Source: a virus. From it: a stretch of 29,763 nt of DNA. Positions 18,816 through 29,675 of this stretch are shown piece by piece. The position numbers and the translations under genes are program-made. Every line of letters starts with the position of its first letter. Positions within the stretch are counted from its first letter, which is position 1. The notes under the pieces are model-generated. The model did not search any database. It saw only the letters and a list, made by a program, of their open reading frames with translations, and had not been told where the DNA came from. Location of the stretch: positions 1-29,763 of IMG/VR virus record IMGVR_UViG_3300042542_002553; one strand, 5' to 3'.

Positions 18816-19493
18816 TTACCGCGTGAGGGCCGTATCAAGCCATCCGACGACGTCGGACTTCGGCGGATCTTCGGAGAGCACGTTCTCGAAGTCGGGGACG
18901 GCGGCGATCGCCGCAGGATCTCCCGCATCGTGCCACCCTCGGACGGTGTTTTGGTGAAGCTGCGTATCGGAGGCGTAGCGTTGGAGGAGATCGGAGAACG
19001 GGACCTCGGGTCCGATCGCGATCGCGCGGATTGCGGCATATAGACGCTCCGGGTAGGCGAAGGCGTAGATCCCCACGCAGACTGCGAGATAGGGCTTCCC
19101 TCTCGTCCATCCCCACCGTGACGGGAGATCCCACGTCCGAGAGGGCGCAGGGGCGACCCCAACCCACGAGCCCGCGGGGAGGGGTTGCGGGGCGAGGAGG
19201 GTATCTGCGAAGAGGACGATCGTCTCCTCCGCGGGCCATCGCGTAATCGAGAGGTAGGCGCGCAGGGCTCCGACGGGTCCGTCCGCCTCATCGTGCGCGA
19301 TGACCCTCGCCCACGGCGTAGCCTCGGCGACTGCCTTCACGTCTTCCGTTCGCGTAATGATCGTCGTCGGAATACCGCGAAGGAGCCTCTCGTGCCATTC
19401 GTGGACGGGGACTCCGCCCGCTTCTACGAGAAGCTTATTCGCGCCGCCGAGGCGCGTAGACTTTCCTGCCGCGAGGATGACCGCTCGCCTCAC
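18816..19493 (-). CDS. Sugar-nucleotidyltransferase-like (NTP-transferase) protein
   Basis: The 225-residue protein starts with RRAVILAAGKSTRLGGANKLL, the nucleotide-binding signature of NTP transferases that make activated sugars (MobA/GlmU/RmlA-like). It also has VIAHDEADGPVGAL and LFADTLLAP motifs, which fit the metal-binding region. A sugar 1-phosphate is a likely substrate, as its gene adjoins two glycosyltransferases. The GTG at 19493 overlaps the previous stop (GTGA); an ATG at 19514 is in frame but would overlap by 25 bases. MobA-like molybdenum-cofactor activity is less likely given its neighbours. Confidence 0.75.
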   Translation of the reverse strand: MRRAVILAAGKSTRLGGANKLLVEAGGVPVHEWHERLLRGIPTTIITRTEDVKAVAEATPWARVIAHDEADGPVGALRAYLSITRWPAEETIVLFADTLLAPQPLPAGSWVGVAPAPSRTWDLPSRWGWTRGKPYLAVCVGIYAFAYPERLYAAIRAIAIGPEVPFSDLLQRYASDTQLHQNTVRGWHDAGDPAAIAAVPDFENVLSEDPPKSDVVGWLDTALTR

Positions 19494-20029
19494 GGGCGGG
19501 ACTCGTGAATCCATTCAGGGTTCAGGCGATAAACCCACGTCACTTCAGGGACGGAGACGAACTTCGCCCCTGCGTCAAGAGCACGAACCCAGAACTTCCA
19601 ATCGTAGCCCTTCTCGTTCGCGAAGCCGCCGAGATCGAGGAGGAGTTCGGTGCGTACCATCGCGACGTGCGAGACGATGGAGGTCGTCCGAAGGAGATCG
19701 GGATCGAACGGGCGAGAGTAGAGATTAAAGGCGGGATCTCCTACGACCGTGGGATAGGAGTAGACGACGTCCGCGTCGCCCACGTGATCGAGCATCGTCT
19801 CAAGGTGATTCGGGAGGAGGAGATCGTCATCGTCGAGGAGCTGCGTCCACTTCGTCTCCACCTGAGAAACGAGGAGATTCCGCGGCCTCCATCCTCCGAT
19901 CTTCTGATAGTCGATCGCGATCAGGTGATCGGCGGGCTTAATAATCTGCGTCGCGACGCTCCGAATACACTCCTCGCGCTGAGAGGATCGCTCCGGGAGG
20001 CTCGCCGTAATGACCGTCACTTCGCTCAC
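19490..20029 (-). CDS. GT-A (family 2-like) glycosyltransferase
   Basis: The 179-residue protein has the GT2 plan: EVTVITASLPERSSQREECI start, the helix SVATQIIKPADHLIAID, and an acidic DDDD motif at 66-69 (QLLDDDDLLLPNH) that would hold the sugar-nucleotide and metal. A YDWKFWVRALDAG segment matches the later catalytic region. It is a compact, single-domain form. Its GTG overlaps the stop of the upstream glycosyltransferase gene (GTGA at 20026-20029), so the three cassette genes are co-translated. Confidence 0.8.
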   Translation of the reverse strand: MSEVTVITASLPERSSQREECIRSVATQIIKPADHLIAIDYQKIGGWRPRNLLVSQVETKWTQLLDDDDLLLPNHLETMLDHVGDADVVYSYPTVVGDPAFNLYSRPFDPDLLRTTSIVSHVAMVRTELLLDLGGFANEKGYDWKFWVRALDAGAKFVSVPEVTWVYRLNPEWIHESRP

Positions 20030-21270
20030 TTCTTCCCCCTTACCGCGGCTCGCCGCTGCTCACGATTGAGTCCCGCCCCGAGTTGAGGCTTCTTCAGCTC
20101 CTGCTCAAGCTGCGCGAGCGTTGGAACCCAATACTTTTCGAAGACCTTATCCGTGGAATAGTCCGCCGCGAAGGCGATCGCCTTCGCCGAGAGAGCCGCC
20201 TTCTCGGCGGGGTTCTTCGAGACGGCGTAGGACTTCTCGAGCGCGTCAATGATTCCGTCAATGCTCGGGACTTTCCACAACGCCCCGCCCTGAAACTCGT
20301 CATAGGCGATCTGACCTTCGACGAGCCACCCTGCGCCGTTGAGTTCCGTCATTGACGTATTGTTCGTCGCGATGATCGGCACTCCCACCGCCATACTCTC
20401 GATCTGACTCACGCCGAAGCCCTCCCCGAGCGTCGCGTGAAGGAGCACGTCGGAGGAGCGGTGAAGATTCGCGACGACTGAGTGATCAATCCCCATTCGG
20501 TATTCGTATTGCGGGACGACCCGGATTCGGTCCATCGGAGCCTTCACGCGCTGAAGGAGACGATCGAGACGGCACCCGTTCGCGATGCCGCTCATCTCTG
20601 AGTGGATATAAAGATACGCGTCGTCGTGCTTCTCCGCGAATCGCGCCCACGCATAGAGCTGCTCAAACCACGCCTTACGGATCGGTGTGTTGCCCTTGTT
20701 CGCGGCGTTGATCATTGAGAGGTGCGCGTCCCTCGGAACCTGAAGCGTCTCGCGCATCGTCGGGCCTTCAGGCGTGAACGTCTTCGGATTAAACGTATGC
20801 GGAGAATAGAAGAGCCGATCGCGCGGGACTCCCGCTTCTAGAAGCTTCGCCTCACCGAAGCGACTCATCGCCATCGCCCACTTTCGCCCGGGGCGATTAA
20901 AGAACTCCATTACTTCGTCGGGAACTGGATCGTGATCGACGGGCGTCCACGAAAGAAGTGGCGACTGATCCCACTGCGGATTCTTAAAGACCCAGACGTC
21001 GAAGAGCGTGATTCCCAAGAAGCGACCCTCTGCGCCCTGCGCGAGATTGAGGAGCGCGGCGGGGTGTAGATCGTTGGAGTATCCGTCGATCCCTTGAGGG
21101 AGGATGCTCATCCCCTCCCACTGAATCGTGGAGCCCGCGAGCCCGTGATTCGCGAGGATTGAGACATCGTGGCCCGCATCGCGAAGCTTTCGCGTGATCT
21201 CTGCCGTGGCCATCCCGTACCCCGAGCCCACGAACGGAGCGTTACTTACCCACCCGATCTTGAGCGTCAT
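20026..21270 (-). CDS. GT-B (family 4-like) glycosyltransferase
   Basis: The 414-residue protein has the GT-B form with the donor-binding E-x7-E motif at E283 and E291 (GEGFGVSQIESMAVGVPII). Its N-terminus is GWVSNAPFVGSGYGMATAEI, the usual acceptor-side glycine-rich start. A nearby helix and the final AAVRGKK basic tail are less conserved. It probably transfers sugars to a phage surface protein. It starts after the terminator that follows the capsid gene, with a GGAGGAGGAG signal ten bases before the ATG. Confidence 0.85.
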   Translation of the reverse strand: MTLKIGWVSNAPFVGSGYGMATAEITRKLRDAGHDVSILANHGLAGSTIQWEGMSILPQGIDGYSNDLHPAALLNLAQGAEGRFLGITLFDVWVFKNPQWDQSPLLSWTPVDHDPVPDEVMEFFNRPGRKWAMAMSRFGEAKLLEAGVPRDRLFYSPHTFNPKTFTPEGPTMRETLQVPRDAHLSMINAANKGNTPIRKAWFEQLYAWARFAEKHDDAYLYIHSEMSGIANGCRLDRLLQRVKAPMDRIRVVPQYEYRMGIDHSVVANLHRSSDVLLHATLGEGFGVSQIESMAVGVPIIATNNTSMTELNGAGWLVEGQIAYDEFQGGALWKVPSIDGIIDALEKSYAVSKNPAEKAALSAKAIAFAADYSTDKVFEKYWVPTLAQLEQELKKPQLGAGLNREQRRAAVRGKK

Positions 21271-21370: not shown

Positions 21371-22561
21371 TCAGGTATTCGCTGAGACGAGGATTCGACC
21401 CGCTGCCGCGTCTGGCAAGGCGGAGTCGAGGCTATAGAGAGCTCGGATGGCGATTGAGTTCAGGTCGAAGTACCTCTCGGAACTTGTCGCCAAATCAACA
21501 CCGCCCGCCTCGCGGATATAGAACGAAGGCTCGTGGATGATCACGACAGACTTCGAAGCCGAAGCCACCGCGGCCATATCCACGTTCTCCTTGACTCGAT
21601 AGCCGAGAAGGGTTTCAGGCTGGCCCGCCATCGTGGAGGGCTGCCACACGAACTGGCCGTTCAGATCCTGAAGGCCGCGAAGCTTGCGCGCCGCGCCCGT
21701 TGAGACCTGCCATACGGTGTCCGCGTTTCGGTACTTAGGCGTTAGTGCATAGAGCGCGGATTGCACGTCAAGAAGATCGAAGAAGGTCGCGGTGACCGTT
21801 CCCGACTTCGTCGCCGTTGTTAGCGCGCCCGCGGTGTTGAGAGCCGATACGAAGCCCGTAGGCTGAACGGTTCCCGTTCCGAGAGTTGTCGCCGAACCTG
21901 CGAGACGTGCGAGCTGCGAACCTGCGGCGCGGCCCACGTACTCCACAAGGTTAAACCCTGCTGAGTCCACGAGCTGCTGAGACGCGAGAGTAATCGTCGC
22001 CGCGGTGAACGCGCCGAGGGTCACGCTCGTGAATACAGGATCGGAGGCTGAGATCGTTCCGCCCTGCGAAACGAACGCGGCTGTCGGTGCCGTACCTGCT
22101 ACGACTGGAATCGTGATGTTGCGAATATCCGTTGTGCGGATCTTCGTAGCACCTTCGTAAATGCTGATCCCTTCCACGAGCTGCTCGACAACGAAGTCGG
22201 CAAACGTGACGGGAGTCGTTGCGGTTGCGGTTGCGAGTGCGCGGATCTCGAAGTTCGCGGAACGCTTCTCGCCCTTGATGATGGCGCGGAGCACGTCCGC
22301 ATCATTCTCAAGAGTCTTCCCCGTTGCGACTTCTAGATTCCCGACGACGGAGGCGAGCTTCGCGCTGCGCTCCTCGCCCTTCTTAAGATCTTCGATCTTC
22401 GAGAGCTTGGCGTCCATTGAGTCGTTCAGCTTCGAATACTGCGCCTCTTCCTCGGCGTTAAGGTCACGGGCCTCGTCCGATGCGCGGGAAACGAGAGCCT
22501 TAGCGGCCTCGAACTCACGTCGGTAGGCGTCGTGGAGCTGGTTCATAACGTCCTTCGACAT
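21371..22561 (-). CDS. Major capsid protein, HK97 fold
   Basis: The 396-residue protein has a charged, coiled-coil N-terminal scaffold-like domain (about 1-75, with YRREFEAAKALVSRASDEAR and EEEAQYSKLNDSMDAKLSK). The shell domain follows after residue 110, with TPVTFADFVVEQLVEGIS and strands typical of HK97-fold capsids. The first domain is probably removed by the phage protease. Its own leader has a strong AAGAAGGAG signal, and a terminator lies behind it, as expected for the most abundant protein. Confidence 0.9.
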   Translation of the reverse strand: MSKDVMNQLHDAYRREFEAAKALVSRASDEARDLNAEEEAQYSKLNDSMDAKLSKIEDLKKGEERSAKLASVVGNLEVATGKTLENDADVLRAIIKGEKRSANFEIRALATATATTPVTFADFVVEQLVEGISIYEGATKIRTTDIRNITIPVVAGTAPTAAFVSQGGTISASDPVFTSVTLGAFTAATITLASQQLVDSAGFNLVEYVGRAAGSQLARLAGSATTLGTGTVQPTGFVSALNTAGALTTATKSGTVTATFFDLLDVQSALYALTPKYRNADTVWQVSTGAARKLRGLQDLNGQFVWQPSTMAGQPETLLGYRVKENVDMAAVASASKSVVIIHEPSFYIREAGGVDLATSSERYFDLNSIAIRALYSLDSALPDAAAGRILVSANT

Positions 22562-22668: not shown

Positions 22669-24627
22669 TTACTTTAGCGCGCGCCTCGCGAGTTCGATCT
22701 GCTTTTCGCGGATCGCTCGTGGTACGGCGCGGGGAGCCGACTGCTCGGCGGGGACGTCTTCGATGATCGTCTCCTCGGTGACGTCCTCCACTTCGGTGAC
22801 GTCCTCCGCCATCTCTGACTCGTCTTCGGCGATGACGGCGGCGATGGCATCCGCGAGGATCTTCGCCTGATCTTCCGTGACCTCGCCCGCGAGGAGCGCG
22901 TTTACCGCTGCGCGGAGCGGCTCAATCTCGAGCCCCGCCTCCGAGGCGAGGGATCGGACGGAGACCGTGGAGATCGTGCTCGGGTAATAAGGCGAGAGGC
23001 CCGTGAGCGCGGAGACCTCCACGAGCTTCACTTCGCGAAGTTCGCGGACTCCCTCATCGTTCACGCGATTCGCGTTCGTCGAGAAGAAGCCGAAGGAGAG
23101 CCCGAGGGACTTCCCCATCGTGCGGACGATCTCTGCGAGGTCGCGATGGAACGATACGTTCGGATTAAGTTTCACGCGGGCGCGGAGTCCCTCCGGGGTA
23201 TCCGTAAGCTCAAGCGTCCCCGTCTTCGTCGTGCCGAGAAGACGCTCGGGGTTATGGTCAGCGTAGGCTTTGATGTCCCACTCTCCGCGCTCCGCGGCGG
23301 CGAGGGATCGGGCGAAGGCTCCGGGCTTCACGACTTCGGGCGTCGTGCCATCCGCCGAGGGCGAGTCGTAGATCGCGGCCATACCCTCGAAGGTGAAGCC
23401 TTCAGGATCAACGGCGCGGAGCTCAGCGGTCGCGGTTCGGAACTGGATTCCCATATCTTCCCCTTCGTTACGCGCCGCGTCATCCGCGGCGGCTTCGTTG
23501 ATGATACGCGACGCCCACGCTTTCGCGGGGTCGCCACCCCATAGTGCCCACGCGATACGACCCGCGGACGGATAGCCGTCTTCGCCGACGCTGAATCCCT
23601 GCGCCTCCTTATCGACTTCGTGGCGCGCGAGATAGGACGAGATTCGGACGACGGTGTCGTATGGAAGGCGGCGACCGTTGGAGATATCGCGAGCTCGGGC
23701 GACCCCGACCTCCGTCCCTCCGCGCCCGAACTCTCGTCGCCACTCAAGCCCGCGCTCGGCCTCTTCCCTCATCTCTGCCGTCGGGAGGTAGCCGTCGGGA
23801 TCAATCGCGCGCGCCTTCGCTTCGCCTGAATACTTCGGGTGCTCGGGATCGAGAAGATCGTTATCCCCGACATACTTCGGGTTCTCCGGGCTCCCCGTTC
23901 GGGCGAGCACAAGGAACGCATTGACGCGCGCCATCGCCCATTGAGCGCGTCCGATCCCCGGACGATGACTTGACGAATAGGCTCCCGCTCCTCGGCGATA
24001 AACGGAGCGGAGCGCGCCCACGCGGACGCGCGTCCACTCGGGACGATCCCGCTCCCTCATCGCGGCGTTGTGCTCGTCGGCTTTATTCTGAAGAGCTGTC
24101 TCCGTCTCTTCCGAGATCTCGATATCCCCGATCTTTCCCTGAGCCGACCCGGGATCGTTCTCATCGCTCCCCGAGATCTGATCCTCGGGAGGCGCGGGCG
24201 CGTCGGCGCGCGTAGGCGCGCTCGGACGGTGATCGTGATCCATCGCCAACGCCTGATCTGGCGTCATCGCGTGGATGCCCATCCCCTCCGCCGCCTCTCG
24301 GGCGTCGGCGTCATCGTCCACGAGGAACGCGATCTCGTCGCCGTATTGTTCAAGGAGCTTCGAATATTTAAACGCCTTAAAGGCTTCGATCACTTCAGGG
24401 CTTGACTCGTCCGAGAAGTCCTGAAGATAGATCGCGTCGAACGGTACGCCGTTCTCCTCGAGCCACTTCTCCGTCTCTGCGCGACGGCGAACGGGGCGGC
24501 CCGTAACGATGAGGATCTTCACGCCGTGATCTGCGACGCCTTTCTTCACGTATGCGATGAGATCCTCTCGCGGCTCCTCCGAGTCCGGGAGAGTGAGCGT
24601 CCCGTCGATATCGTAGATCTCGATCAC
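22669..24627 (-). CDS. HAD-phosphatase/linker/prohead-protease fusion
   Basis: The 652-residue protein has three parts. Residues 1-130 form a HAD-type phosphatase like the 3'-phosphatase half of PNKP: DIDGT (D6, D8), ILIVTGRP (T42), and FLVDDDADAREAA (about 101-113). Residues about 190-380 contain a conserved phage head segment (VYRRGAGAYSS, then GYPSAGRIAWALWGGD). Residues about 400-560 form an S78-type prohead protease, with H458 in YADHNP and the probable serine S511 in GLSFGF. An acidic tail follows. It begins with GTG in a GTGA overlap. An internal ATG (residue 392, bases 23454-23452) after GGGGAAG could also make a lone protease of 261 residues. It lies between the portal region and capsid genes. 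Confidence 0.8.
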   Translation of the reverse strand: MIEIYDIDGTLTLPDSEEPREDLIAYVKKGVADHGVKILIVTGRPVRRRAETEKWLEENGVPFDAIYLQDFSDESSPEVIEAFKAFKYSKLLEQYGDEIAFLVDDDADAREAAEGMGIHAMTPDQALAMDHDHRPSAPTRADAPAPPEDQISGSDENDPGSAQGKIGDIEISEETETALQNKADEHNAAMRERDRPEWTRVRVGALRSVYRRGAGAYSSSHRPGIGRAQWAMARVNAFLVLARTGSPENPKYVGDNDLLDPEHPKYSGEAKARAIDPDGYLPTAEMREEAERGLEWRREFGRGGTEVGVARARDISNGRRLPYDTVVRISSYLARHEVDKEAQGFSVGEDGYPSAGRIAWALWGGDPAKAWASRIINEAAADDAARNEGEDMGIQFRTATAELRAVDPEGFTFEGMAAIYDSPSADGTTPEVVKPGAFARSLAAAERGEWDIKAYADHNPERLLGTTKTGTLELTDTPEGLRARVKLNPNVSFHRDLAEIVRTMGKSLGLSFGFFSTNANRVNDEGVRELREVKLVEVSALTGLSPYYPSTISTVSVRSLASEAGLEIEPLRAAVNALLAGEVTEDQAKILADAIAAVIAEDESEMAEDVTEVEDVTEETIIEDVPAEQSAPRAVPRAIREKQIELARRALK

Positions 24628-24893
24628 GGATCTACCTGAAAATCATAGACTGAGATTACGGCGTCCGAAGAAGAAGAGATCCCGTAAAGGATATCGCCGT
24701 TCGCGATCTTTACGATCACGACCGCGTTCTTCACGACCTCGAAGCCTCCTCCAATGGCGACGGCCTCATCTCCGATATATACCGTCTTGTTATCATTCGA
24801 TTCGATCGTGAGCTCGTGCGTATTCTTCGGAGTCGCCGTCCCGATGGCAACCGCCGCTGTTCCGATTGTGATATGGCGCGAAGAGAAGGTCAT
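24624..24893 (-). CDS. Small beta-rich virion-associated protein (putative)
   Basis: This 89-residue protein has a strand-rich pattern (HITIGTAAVAIGTAT, then ELTIESNDNKTVYIGDEAVA, then IANGDILYGISSSSDAVISV). The pattern resembles small beta-sandwich proteins found in many phage head or tail modules. It lies between portal and protease and overlaps both neighbours by four bases. A head decoration or scaffold-related role is possible. No enzyme motif is present. Confidence 0.6.
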   Translation of the reverse strand: MTFSSRHITIGTAAVAIGTATPKNTHELTIESNDNKTVYIGDEAVAIGGGFEVVKNAVVIVKIANGDILYGISSSSDAVISVYDFQVDP

Positions 24894-26179
24894 AGTCCCG
24901 AGATCTTTCGCGCGGTCGCCTCGTCCATTCCCGACCCGATGAGCGCGGAATAAATATCCGTCTTCTGCTTTGTCGTCACGAGGGCGGCGTCGCCTTCGTT
25001 GAGCGGTTGGCGGAAGAGGTTCCCTGACTCATCCGGGACGGGCGGGAGATCCTCTCGGCGTCTAATCTCGGACACCGTCAAGAAGCCCGCGGCGAGCCCA
25101 GTGCGGTATGCGTTGAAGCGTGCTTCGGTTGAGCCTCGGAGGAGCGCGTCCATACTGAACTTCACGAACGCTTCAGGGAGAGGGATCAGCGTAGAGAGCG
25201 GACGCTCAATGATCTCGGCGAGGGGGCGGAGGGTAAACCTGACGAAGTCTTCCGACAGTTGCTCGACTGAGGCGTAGCTCATCGCGCCCGCGGTCGTCAC
25301 GGCGAGAAGTGCGGGCGGGACTCGGAAGATACGGGCGACCTCGTTCACGGTGAACTCTCGCGATGCGAGAAGCTGCGCGTCTTCAGGCTTAAAGGCGAGC
25401 GGCTTAAAGGTAAGTCCGCCCGTCAAGACGCCCGGGGTGTATTGATTCGGCCCCGTATGGTGGCGAAGCCATCCCTCCTTGATCGCCTTAATCTGATCCG
25501 CGGTGAGCGAATCGCTCGTCTCAAGAATCCCCGACGGAGTGCTCCCCGTCGCGAAGAAGTTAGAAGCGGAGTCCTCAAGCGTCATCCCGAGGGCGAGTGT
25601 ATTCCGAAGAGACTCGATCGGATTCACTCCGCGATCCTGACCCGGGAGGCGGATCAGCGGGATATGGAGAATCGTTTCGGTTCCGAAGACGACGCCCGTC
25701 GTATGCTCCGAGTTGCGAACGGTGTAGCTCACTTCGCGCCCGATGCGATTAATCGTCACGCTGCGCGGATCGAGAACGCGAACCTCAAGCGGCTCAAGCG
25801 TCTCAGGATCGCGCGGCGCGTAGACGAACGCGTTCCCGTTGAGATAAAGACTTACGATCACTTCGGAGATGACGGACTGAATCCCTACTCCGGGCTCCGA
25901 TGGTAGCGGCGTGAGAAGCCACGTCGGCTTCGCTCCGCCCGGGCGATACGGACGGCGTTCGCCATTGTCGCGACGATAGGCGTCGAGCGGCATCGTAGAG
26001 ATCAGGTCGGCCAGAATCCGCACGCACGCCCACGCACTCGTGAGGCCGAGGGTGGACTTCTCATCCACGCGCGCGGGAGCTAATCCGGGGACGCGATCAA
26101 ATGCGGACGGGATGAGCCCGAGTCCGTTTAGGTTTCTCTCTTCAGGATTCGTTCCGAGGATTCGGCGGATGACGCTCAC
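24890..26179 (-). CDS. Portal protein, HK97 family
   Basis: The 429-residue product matches the HK97-type portal: TSAWACVRILADLISTMPL near residue 50, NGNAFVYAPRD near 115, then FFATGSTPSGILET and the helical wing with MSYASVEQLSEDFVRFTLRP. The N-terminal and stem regions are complete. Portal is the ring through which DNA enters and leaves. The GTG start overlaps the stop of the small membrane gene (GTGA at 26176-26179). Confidence 0.95.
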   Translation of the reverse strand: MSVIRRILGTNPEERNLNGLGLIPSAFDRVPGLAPARVDEKSTLGLTSAWACVRILADLISTMPLDAYRRDNGERRPYRPGGAKPTWLLTPLPSEPGVGIQSVISEVIVSLYLNGNAFVYAPRDPETLEPLEVRVLDPRSVTINRIGREVSYTVRNSEHTTGVVFGTETILHIPLIRLPGQDRGVNPIESLRNTLALGMTLEDSASNFFATGSTPSGILETSDSLTADQIKAIKEGWLRHHTGPNQYTPGVLTGGLTFKPLAFKPEDAQLLASREFTVNEVARIFRVPPALLAVTTAGAMSYASVEQLSEDFVRFTLRPLAEIIERPLSTLIPLPEAFVKFSMDALLRGSTEARFNAYRTGLAAGFLTVSEIRRREDLPPVPDESGNLFRQPLNEGDAALVTTKQKTDIYSALIGSGMDEATARKISGL

Positions 26180-28318: not shown

Positions 28319-29071
28319 CTATGCTTCGCGCGCGTGATCGGGCTTCGATCTCTCCGCTTGAGAGATCCACTTCCCACGATAAATCCCCGCCTTCTTCTCG
28401 TCAATAGCCGAGAAGGGAACAATCGGCGCGACAAGGTCAGCTCGTGCCGAGGGGTCAAGAAAATAGATATAGCGAAACTGATTCCCTCTTAGCACTTCAG
28501 CCTTCGCGGCTTCAACGTACTTCTGAAAGTTATACTTACCGCCCGTGATATCAAAGAAGGATCGACCGCCGAGTTCGGGCCGAGGCGCGAGCGGCTGACT
28601 CTTGAGCGTCATCTCGTGGATTACTTCGCCGCCCGGGAGGCGGGCGAGCCCTGCGTTCGGCTTAATCAGGGTGAGGGAAAATCCCGCCGCCCGGTAGATC
28701 GTGCCGTCGCCGCACTGAGTGCCGTCTGCGTAGGAGACGACCCACCGAACATTCGGGGCGTGCTGCCTGATCTTTCGGAGAGCGATCGCGATCGCGCGGC
28801 TTTCTGAGTTCCTCGGAAGAGCCTCCGTGAAGACCATCCGATTAAGCTCGAGGAACCCATTCCATTCTGTCCCGCGTACGAGCCCGAGCATATTCGCCTT
28901 GTCAAGACTTGGGCCGAACTGGAGGACTCCTTCGAGCCTTCCCGAAAGATACGCGCCGAAGTGAACGCTTGAGTTATTCACACTCTTCCCGGAGTAATGA
29001 TGCGCGCGGACGAAGGCGTGCGCTTCGCGAGAATCAATCAGGCGAAGGACGAGATCCTTAGCCTTCGACAT
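28319..29071 (-). CDS. mom: Mom-like adenine-modification protein
   Basis: The 250-residue protein is like phage Mu Mom and its phage relatives: AHHYSGKSVNNS (H25, Y26), FLELNRMVFTEALPRNSES, and YADGTQCGDGTIYRAAGF (D116, Y126), with a GNAT-like fold expected. In Mu, Mom changes adenine to N6-methylcarbamoyl-adenine and blocks host restriction enzymes. The homologue here probably does something similar, but the target DNA sequence and chemistry are not known. It overlaps the ParB-like gene by 14 bases and precedes the terminase genes. The neighbour may help it bind DNA. Confidence 0.85.
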   Translation of the reverse strand: MSKAKDLVLRLIDSREAHAFVRAHHYSGKSVNNSSVHFGAYLSGRLEGVLQFGPSLDKANMLGLVRGTEWNGFLELNRMVFTEALPRNSESRAIAIALRKIRQHAPNVRWVVSYADGTQCGDGTIYRAAGFSLTLIKPNAGLARLPGGEVIHEMTLKSQPLAPRPELGGRSFFDITGGKYNFQKYVEAAKAEVLRGNQFRYIYFLDPSARADLVAPIVPFSAIDEKKAGIYRGKWISQAERSKPDHAREA

Positions 29072-29675
29072 AGGAGGCGCATATAGCGGCGAGACGATTC
29101 CCGTTATCGTTAGGCGACTCGCCTCCTTTCGCCGCGTCCTTCGCGGCGTCGAGGGCGCGCTGGACGAGAGCGCGCTGATCCTTCGTCATCGTAAAAGTCA
29201 TCGTCACGATTCTCCCGTCGCCCGATGCTGCGAGAGAATCAAGAGAGGAGAAGTCGCCCGGAACGACTCCCGCGCTCACCGCCATATCGGCGAGGAGTGC
29301 CTGAATCTCGGGGTTAGAAGTGCCGACTTCTGAGAGGAGCTGCTCGAGCTTCTCTCGATCTGTCCCCGCGAGCCCTGCGAGCGGATCAAGGGTTGCGAGG
29401 ATAAGAGCCTCTTCGTCGGGCGAGAGATCCACGTATACGACGGGGACGGTTGGCGCGTCATCTCTGAGCGCGATCGAGACGCGGAGGTGACCATCAACGA
29501 GGTGGCCCGTCCGCTTATTGACGATGACGGACTGAACCCACCCGACTTCATCGAGCACGCCCGCGACCGCGTCCTGTTGATTCTTCGGATGGATTCGGAA
29601 GTTCCTCGGATTCGCGAGGAGCTGATCCGGGGCCTCTTCGCCGTATCCGACGATCCTGTTTTCCCACTGCGTCAT
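29058..29675 (-). CDS. ParB/Srx-like domain protein
   Basis: The 205-residue protein has an N-terminal ParB/Srx-like domain: LLANPRNFRIHPKNQQ, then GVLDEVGWVQSVIVNK, the HLVDGHLR motif (61-65 around DGH), and VVYVDLSPDEEALILATL. Such domains in phages often accompany DNA methyltransferases or other DNA-modifying enzymes, and some bind nucleotides such as CTP. The C-terminal third is less conserved and includes MTFTMTKDQRALVQRALDAA. A strong AAAGGAGG signal (29680-29687) precedes the ATG. It may guide or regulate the adjacent Mom-like enzyme; a separate nuclease function is possible. Confidence 0.8.
   Translation of the reverse strand: MTQWENRIVGYGEEAPDQLLANPRNFRIHPKNQQDAVAGVLDEVGWVQSVIVNKRTGHLVDGHLRVSIALRDDAPTVPVVYVDLSPDEEALILATLDPLAGLAGTDREKLEQLLSEVGTSNPEIQALLADMAVSAGVVPGDFSSLDSLAASGDGRIVTMTFTMTKDQRALVQRALDAAKDAAKGGESPNDNGNRLAAICASYVEG

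Follow-up and report, generated by a model that had tools for sequence, protein, structure and literature searches.

A PNKP-like HAD domain and two head modules fused in frame to a prohead protease in a small aquatic phage and its relatives

The stretch of viral DNA analyzed here (IMG/VR record IMGVR_UViG_3300042542_002553, positions 1 to 29,763; all 29,763 nucleotides are called "the window" below) holds a minus-strand frame of 652 codons at 24627-22669 (GTG start at 24627, stop codon at 22671-22669) with a phosphatase motif at one end and a prohead protease at the other. The locus raises the question of what an end-processing phosphatase might do on the front of a head-maturation protease: whether the junction is genuine, whether the protease may also be made alone, and whether the upstream part would be carried into the head. 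An initial annotation made from the letters alone had described a DIDGT phosphatase N-terminus, a conserved phage head segment and an S78-type protease in this one frame. The single 652-residue frame and the DIDGT motif (residues 6-10) are present as claimed in the ORF and its translation. The S78 gene is placed between the portal and HK97-type capsid genes, the order being portal, 89-aa ORF, fusion gene, capsid gene; the GTG of the fused ORF overlaps the stop codon of the 89-aa ORF as GTGA. The features are as follows.

24890..26179, minus strand: portal protein (PF04860, E 3.2e-74)
24624..24893, minus strand: 89-aa ORF in the interval between portal and fusion genes (Pontimonas phage phiPsal1 has an equally long gene at this position)
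22669..24627, minus strand: fused ORF HAD + DUF5824 + C2 + S78 protease, 652 aa (Pfam, PHROG, AF2)
24238..24627, minus strand: HAD phosphatase domain, residues 1-130, with D6, D8, T10, T42/R44, K84 and D104/D105 (predicted from fold, profile and motifs)
24112..24237, minus strand: low-confidence linker, residues 131-172 (pLDDT 44-64 over much of its length)
23812..24111, minus strand: DUF5824 domain, residues 173-272, helical (PF19141, E 1.1e-7; helices in both models)
23467..23787, minus strand: C2 domain, residues 281-387, helical (PHROG 2859, E 5.5e-23; pLDDT about 96)
23428..23466, minus strand: disordered linker, residues 388-400, containing M392 (pLDDT <50 over segment 387-400)
23457..23466, minus strand: candidate Shine-Dalgarno (SD) sequence GAAGGGGAAG 5' of the internal ATG (duplex energy -7.9)
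23452..23454, minus strand: candidate internal start ATG (M392) of a 261-aa free protease, kept in all relatives of the window clade
22948..23427, minus strand: S78 prohead protease core, residues 401-560, with E431, H458 and S511 (PF04586, E 6.9e-24)
22672..22947, minus strand: C-terminal helices and disordered tail, residues 561-652 (AF2 model)
21371..22561, minus strand: major capsid protein, HK97 type (PF05065, E 9.8e-40)

The AF2 model of the fused protein (109 sequences; mean pLDDT 83.3) contained four confident domains joined by low-confidence linkers. The structure prediction of each segment that had been suggested was thereby carried out, and HAD, DUF5824, C2 and the protease were each confidently folded. 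The protein has no cysteines. The conserved middle proposed as a head segment was recovered as two separate modules, DUF5824 and C2, and not as one.

Elsewhere in the window, the gene for a Mom-like DNA modification protein (28319-29071, minus strand; Pfam Mom E 3.7e-50) has the terminase genes and a ParB-like gene (29058-29675) as direct neighbors. At 18816-21270 (minus strand), in the capsid/neck interval, are three sugar genes, encoding a MobA-like NTP transferase and glycosyltransferases of the GT4 and GT2 types; glycosyltransferase genes are likewise found in that interval in phiPsal1.

The Peptidase_S78 match (residues 401-560) scored 85.3 bits against a gathering score of 21, and H458 and S511, the residues named in the initial annotation, were identical in 84 of 84 aligned S78 relatives, as was E431. 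The T4 gp21 protease (5jbl) was among the Foldseek matches listed. The match to PHROG 80 ("head maturation protease") begins at residue 283 and spans C2 and S78; these two parts are shared with that family, and HAD and DUF5824 lie outside it.

Polynucleotide-kinase-type HAD profiles from PHROGs and Pfam cover the first 125 residues, which were matched weakly by Pfam and clearly by PHROG 415 ("polynucleotide kinase", 2.6e-14). Both the window (16.7 bits) and a relative, L086 (21.6 bits), fall below the curated Pfam cut-off for HAD_PNKP (27.6 bits); because this cut-off was not reached, the domain is named PNKP-like and is not filed as an HAD_PNKP member. It is a cap-less HAD. The T4 Pnkp phosphatase was ranked first by VIA-align (Z 16.2, rmsd 2.1, 117 residues), followed by Pnkp1 (15.6), Nir2 LNS2 (14.7) and lipin (14.2); the second VIA comparison effectively covered residues 1-138. 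When a 24-sequence HAD profile was compared to the PDB, the top two chains were Pnkp1 (7.2e-8) and T4 Pnkp (4.3e-5). In these 24 diverse members D6, D8, T10, R44, T52, R110 and G117 are invariant and K84 is nearly so. The HAD motifs (DxDGT, [ST]xR, Lys) are all present, and motifs I-III are intact among the fused relatives; the acidic pair of motif IV is D104-D105 in the window and DN, EN or SD in some relatives. The window HAD shares with the T4 Pnkp and Pnkp1 phosphatases (1rrc, 5uj0, 4xrp) the fold, DxDGT, the [ST]xR motif II and the motif III lysine. It differs from them in being without a kinase domain, in having no equivalent of the T4 Pnkp insertion after motif I, and in motif IV, which is D-[DN]-[DN] in the window HAD family and DDR in T4 Pnkp/Pnkp1.

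Values of dN/dS well below 1 in 13 pairs indicate that the fused HAD is under purifying selection. An inactive HAD without a conserved metal site, which the initial annotation had listed as a possible refutation, was rejected on the motif conservation and the low dN/dS; the site is conserved in relatives, with the drift in motif IV noted above for some of them. With fold and profile closest to the 3'-phosphatase domains of T4 Pnkp and Pnkp1, the "PNKP-like" label stands as a fair description, and the domain is a predicted 3'-phosphatase. No nucleic-acid kinase or ligase was found among the scanned ORFs of the genome, and the phosphatase would therefore be without its usual partners.

A sequencing or assembly error joining separate genes would produce such a frame by accident, and the unusual architecture is the one thing that speaks for it. 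The protease part, used as a query against viral contigs, yielded 19 close relatives, and the HAD alignment yielded 155 loci, of which 80 were kept. HAD and S78 occurred in one frame in 65 ORFs of related viral contigs, some of them 82% identical in the protease; the fusion is therefore neither chance nor a frame error, and a joining artifact, which had also been raised as a way for the proposal to fail, was ruled out with a negligible residue of doubt. These ORFs establish, at the level of sequence, that the HAD-protease fusion is real and widespread in relatives of this small aquatic phage. HAD-C2-S78 is the commonest architecture among them; DUF5824 is added in the window and a few others.

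The protease nearest to that of the window (L087) is 86% identical in its core. Relatives with 67-82% identical proteases carry HAD-C2 (L086), HAD only (L001), a short "MPY" domain with C2 (L096) or C2 alone (L100). Protease identity thus stays at 67-86% while the upstream modules reshuffle, and these differing arrays ahead of similar proteases imply that the array turns over fast. Mapped onto a tree of 71 S78 domains, HAD presence requires 8 changes and DUF5824 presence 13; well-supported branches force at least 4 of the HAD changes.

Several other features were seen among the relatives. At L085:4193-5740 the HAD has no in-frame motif I at its start, pointing to a frame break or a contig error near the N-terminus. 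The N-termini of L007, L009, L013, L016 and L020 consist of a small domain (MPYxI...CxGWAVVK...GCHxTKxEA) that opens many arrays and weakly matches the start of PHROG 80. A Cys4 domain (CxNCxFY...C...C) in L020:3599-5539, L006, L053, L069 and L080 resembles high-potential iron-sulfur protein, with a Pfam HIPIP E-value of only 0.07; this may be an iron-sulfur module carried by phage head proteases.

The two middle modules are found far beyond this gene. DUF5824 (PF19141) was matched at residues 198-249 with 32.5 bits against a gathering score of 25. C2 corresponds to the match to PHROG 2859 (unknown function) at residues 282-383 and has the signature GRGGTxVGxARARDI...RHEVDK...PSAGRIAWALWGGD. 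In a sample of 157 DUF5824/C2 ORFs, 97 were fused to S78, 9 to S78 and the major capsid protein (MCP), 3 to MCP and 1 to portal, 35 more lay beside head genes, and 12 had no head gene in the available stretch; the sample was drawn with the fused protein of the window as the query, so these fractions are not unbiased and exaggerate the share of modules attached to proteases. The modules occur in either order. C2 is part of a portal-MuF protein encoded by the archaeal virus HRTV-4, stands alone in phage PaBG, and forms C2-S78 in phiPsal1. From this distribution, DUF5824 and C2 are judged to be mobile modules on many head proteins.

No solved structure matched the DUF5824+C2 model in a Foldseek search of the PDB (best E only 2.7), and in a viral structure library the fold was found in other phage proteins only. 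The names matched there by the central model were prohead protease, XkdF, portal, Dps, ParB/sulfiredoxin and HAD-like; the record "DNA-binding protein Dps" matches this central (DUF5824+C2) model. At L079:1604-2971, a Dps-like ferritin is fused to DUF5824 (Ferritin E 1.3e-14, DUF5824 E 1e-7), suggesting a DNA-protecting cargo. A 238-aa C2 + DUF5824 protein of Roseobacter phage CRP-823 (L082:4340-5056) carries the GenBank label "major capsid protein", which is probably wrong.

The same modules bear on a structural explanation, according to which the N-terminal array is a part of the prohead (a scaffold or a protease-docking extension) whose HAD fold binds, with catalysis being irrelevant, or is degraded during maturation. 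DUF5824/C2 are also joined to the N-terminal side of capsid proteins, and a coil-rich protein of a Vibrio phage, encoded between the portal/MuF and capsid genes where a scaffold would be, contains C2; the optional, reshuffled nature of the array is consistent with this idea as well. A pure scaffold, however, would not need invariant D6, D8, T10 and R44, a nearly invariant K84 (24 members) and low dN/dS, and HAD is missing from the near relatives L096 and L100 without a similar-sized substitute fold. A purely structural array is accordingly considered improbable. A broader proposal is that DUF5824/C2 would be general head-loading modules of bacterial and archaeal tailed viruses, that enzymes (the PNKP-like HAD, the Dps-like ferritin, perhaps others) would be plugged onto them and the prohead protease, and that a second start would determine how much protease bears cargo relative to the free form; this is put forward tentatively, and we would not expect it to hold in full.

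That second start had been proposed in the initial annotation at the ATG at 23454-23452. The codon is present as M392, with GAAGGGGAAGAT before it. Its SD energy (-7.9 kcal/mol) is typical of probable starts elsewhere in the window, which span roughly -3 to -12, but 11% of ORF positions score as well. Every member of the window clade has the ATG four residues ahead of the S78 match, its SD energy ranges from -7.8 to -9.2, and the linker residues vary (EGED, KGDK, KEPK, EKPK) despite the kept SD. In one sister clade, the boundary residue is M, V or L and the codon is ATG, GTG or TTG in 24 of 24 ORFs that represent few independent lineages; background usage there is 19% TTG among Leu codons and 32% GTG among Val codons. 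Synonymous codon shuffles gave an SD no better than expected for the window (P 0.51) and did not single it out in the window's own clade (P 0.09-0.61); for the sister clade they gave weak support (P 0.02-0.07 in 7 of 12 rows). Across 74 fused ORFs, the median SD energy of the best linker ATG was -5.9 vs. -2.5 for other ATGs, a generous comparison of the best of several with single codons. Distant HAD-S78 relatives keep the boundary Met with a weak SD, and two starts are therefore not universal.

In a split-gene sister clade, the protease is a separate gene whose ATG and SD lie 23-52 nt past the stop codon of the module gene; the protease can thus exist unfused in natural phages. L117 was considered as a natural split between HAD-C2 and protease and was ruled out, its break resembling an internal deletion or an assembly fault. 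The proposal of a protease made alone is thus favored by the conserved, SD-backed boundary codon and the split-gene clade, and disfavored by a window SD that is not above synonymous expectation. A second, shorter product of the fusion gene, with M392 as the candidate start, is plausible on these comparisons and somewhat favored.

In the nested C and Nu3 genes of phage lambda, an internal in-frame start gives a shorter C-terminal product. The candidate here resembles this case in having a conserved second in-frame start with an SD inside a head-protease gene; it differs in that the short product of lambda is a scaffold, whereas the one predicted for the window is the protease. Interaction data for C and Nu3 have been published (PMC3224144).

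The boundary start and the split-gene clade would also fit a different account, in which the HAD serves the infected cell as an ordinary phosphatase for end processing or for nucleotides, the fusion does no more than link expression, and mostly the short protease from the internal start is used in heads. Standalone HAD relatives in other phages point the same way. Selection has nevertheless kept the HAD, C2 and S78 frame open in many lineages, and DUF5824/C2 tie the array to head proteins; we regard this account as unlikely.

The initial annotation is borne out in what it observed and in part of what it concluded. The preferred reading is that a head-maturation protease takes N-terminal cargo, an enzyme plus two head modules, into the prohead, and we hold it to be evenly balanced between right and wrong. 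The profile searches, alignments and model support four domains in one frame, apparently intact active sites, predicted disordered linkers, a conserved fusion and a reshuffled array; all steps beyond the one-frame fusion are ones that we infer. HK97-type proteases work inside proheads, so parts joined to one would be carried in unless assembly were blocked. The protease part would enter the prohead as those proteases do, bringing HAD-DUF5824-C2 along. Once activated, it would cleave scaffold and capsid precursor, and probably also the linkers within its own chain, and the HAD would be released inside the head with or without DUF5824/C2. The PNKP-like HAD would be retained together with the DNA; it may then be injected and clean 3'-phosphate DNA or RNA ends early in infection. 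The second start at M392 would probably also yield a free 28-kDa protease and would set the level of cargo loading.

Parts of this scheme have precedents. For polyvalent phage proteins that end in an assemblin-like peptidase, processing while the virion is assembled has been proposed, and their packaging and injection are a prediction there too (PMC5512222). The window protein has the polyvalent characters defined there (multidomain, C-terminal peptidase, among head genes), with several enzymatic or binding domains before a C-terminal head-maturation-type peptidase; the polyvalent proteins described are mostly larger. No HAD or phosphatase domain turned up when the text of that paper was searched, and its consulted passages mention neither DUF5824/C2 modules nor an internal start. 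MuF-effector fusions (PMC5576092, PMC5512222) likewise use a head protein as an enzyme carrier; there the carrier is the portal-bound MuF, whereas here it is the protease, without a toxin domain. T4 internal proteins bear a capsid targeting sequence, and cargo fused to such a protein is packaged, cut loose by the gp21 protease and injected (PMC9026906). Prohead-core loading and release by the protease are as proposed for the window cargo, and the T4 system differs in placing a short targeting peptide on separate proteins, whereas the window cargo would be covalently on the protease. Literature searches that covered few subscription papers found no paper on DUF5824, on a prohead protease with HAD and polynucleotide kinase, or on HiPIP and a prohead protease together. 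The HAD-protease fusion is probably a variation on the known theme of C-terminal-peptidase phage proteins, its HAD version not having been found in the literature searched.

If the cargo reading is true, the prohead protease would be a carrier for swappable enzymes, and small HK97-type phages would own a protein-loading route parallel to the T4 targeting peptides and the MuF fusions. It would also assign a role to two uncharacterised modules that are widespread, and would predict which phage heads deliver DNA- or RNA-end enzymes to the host.
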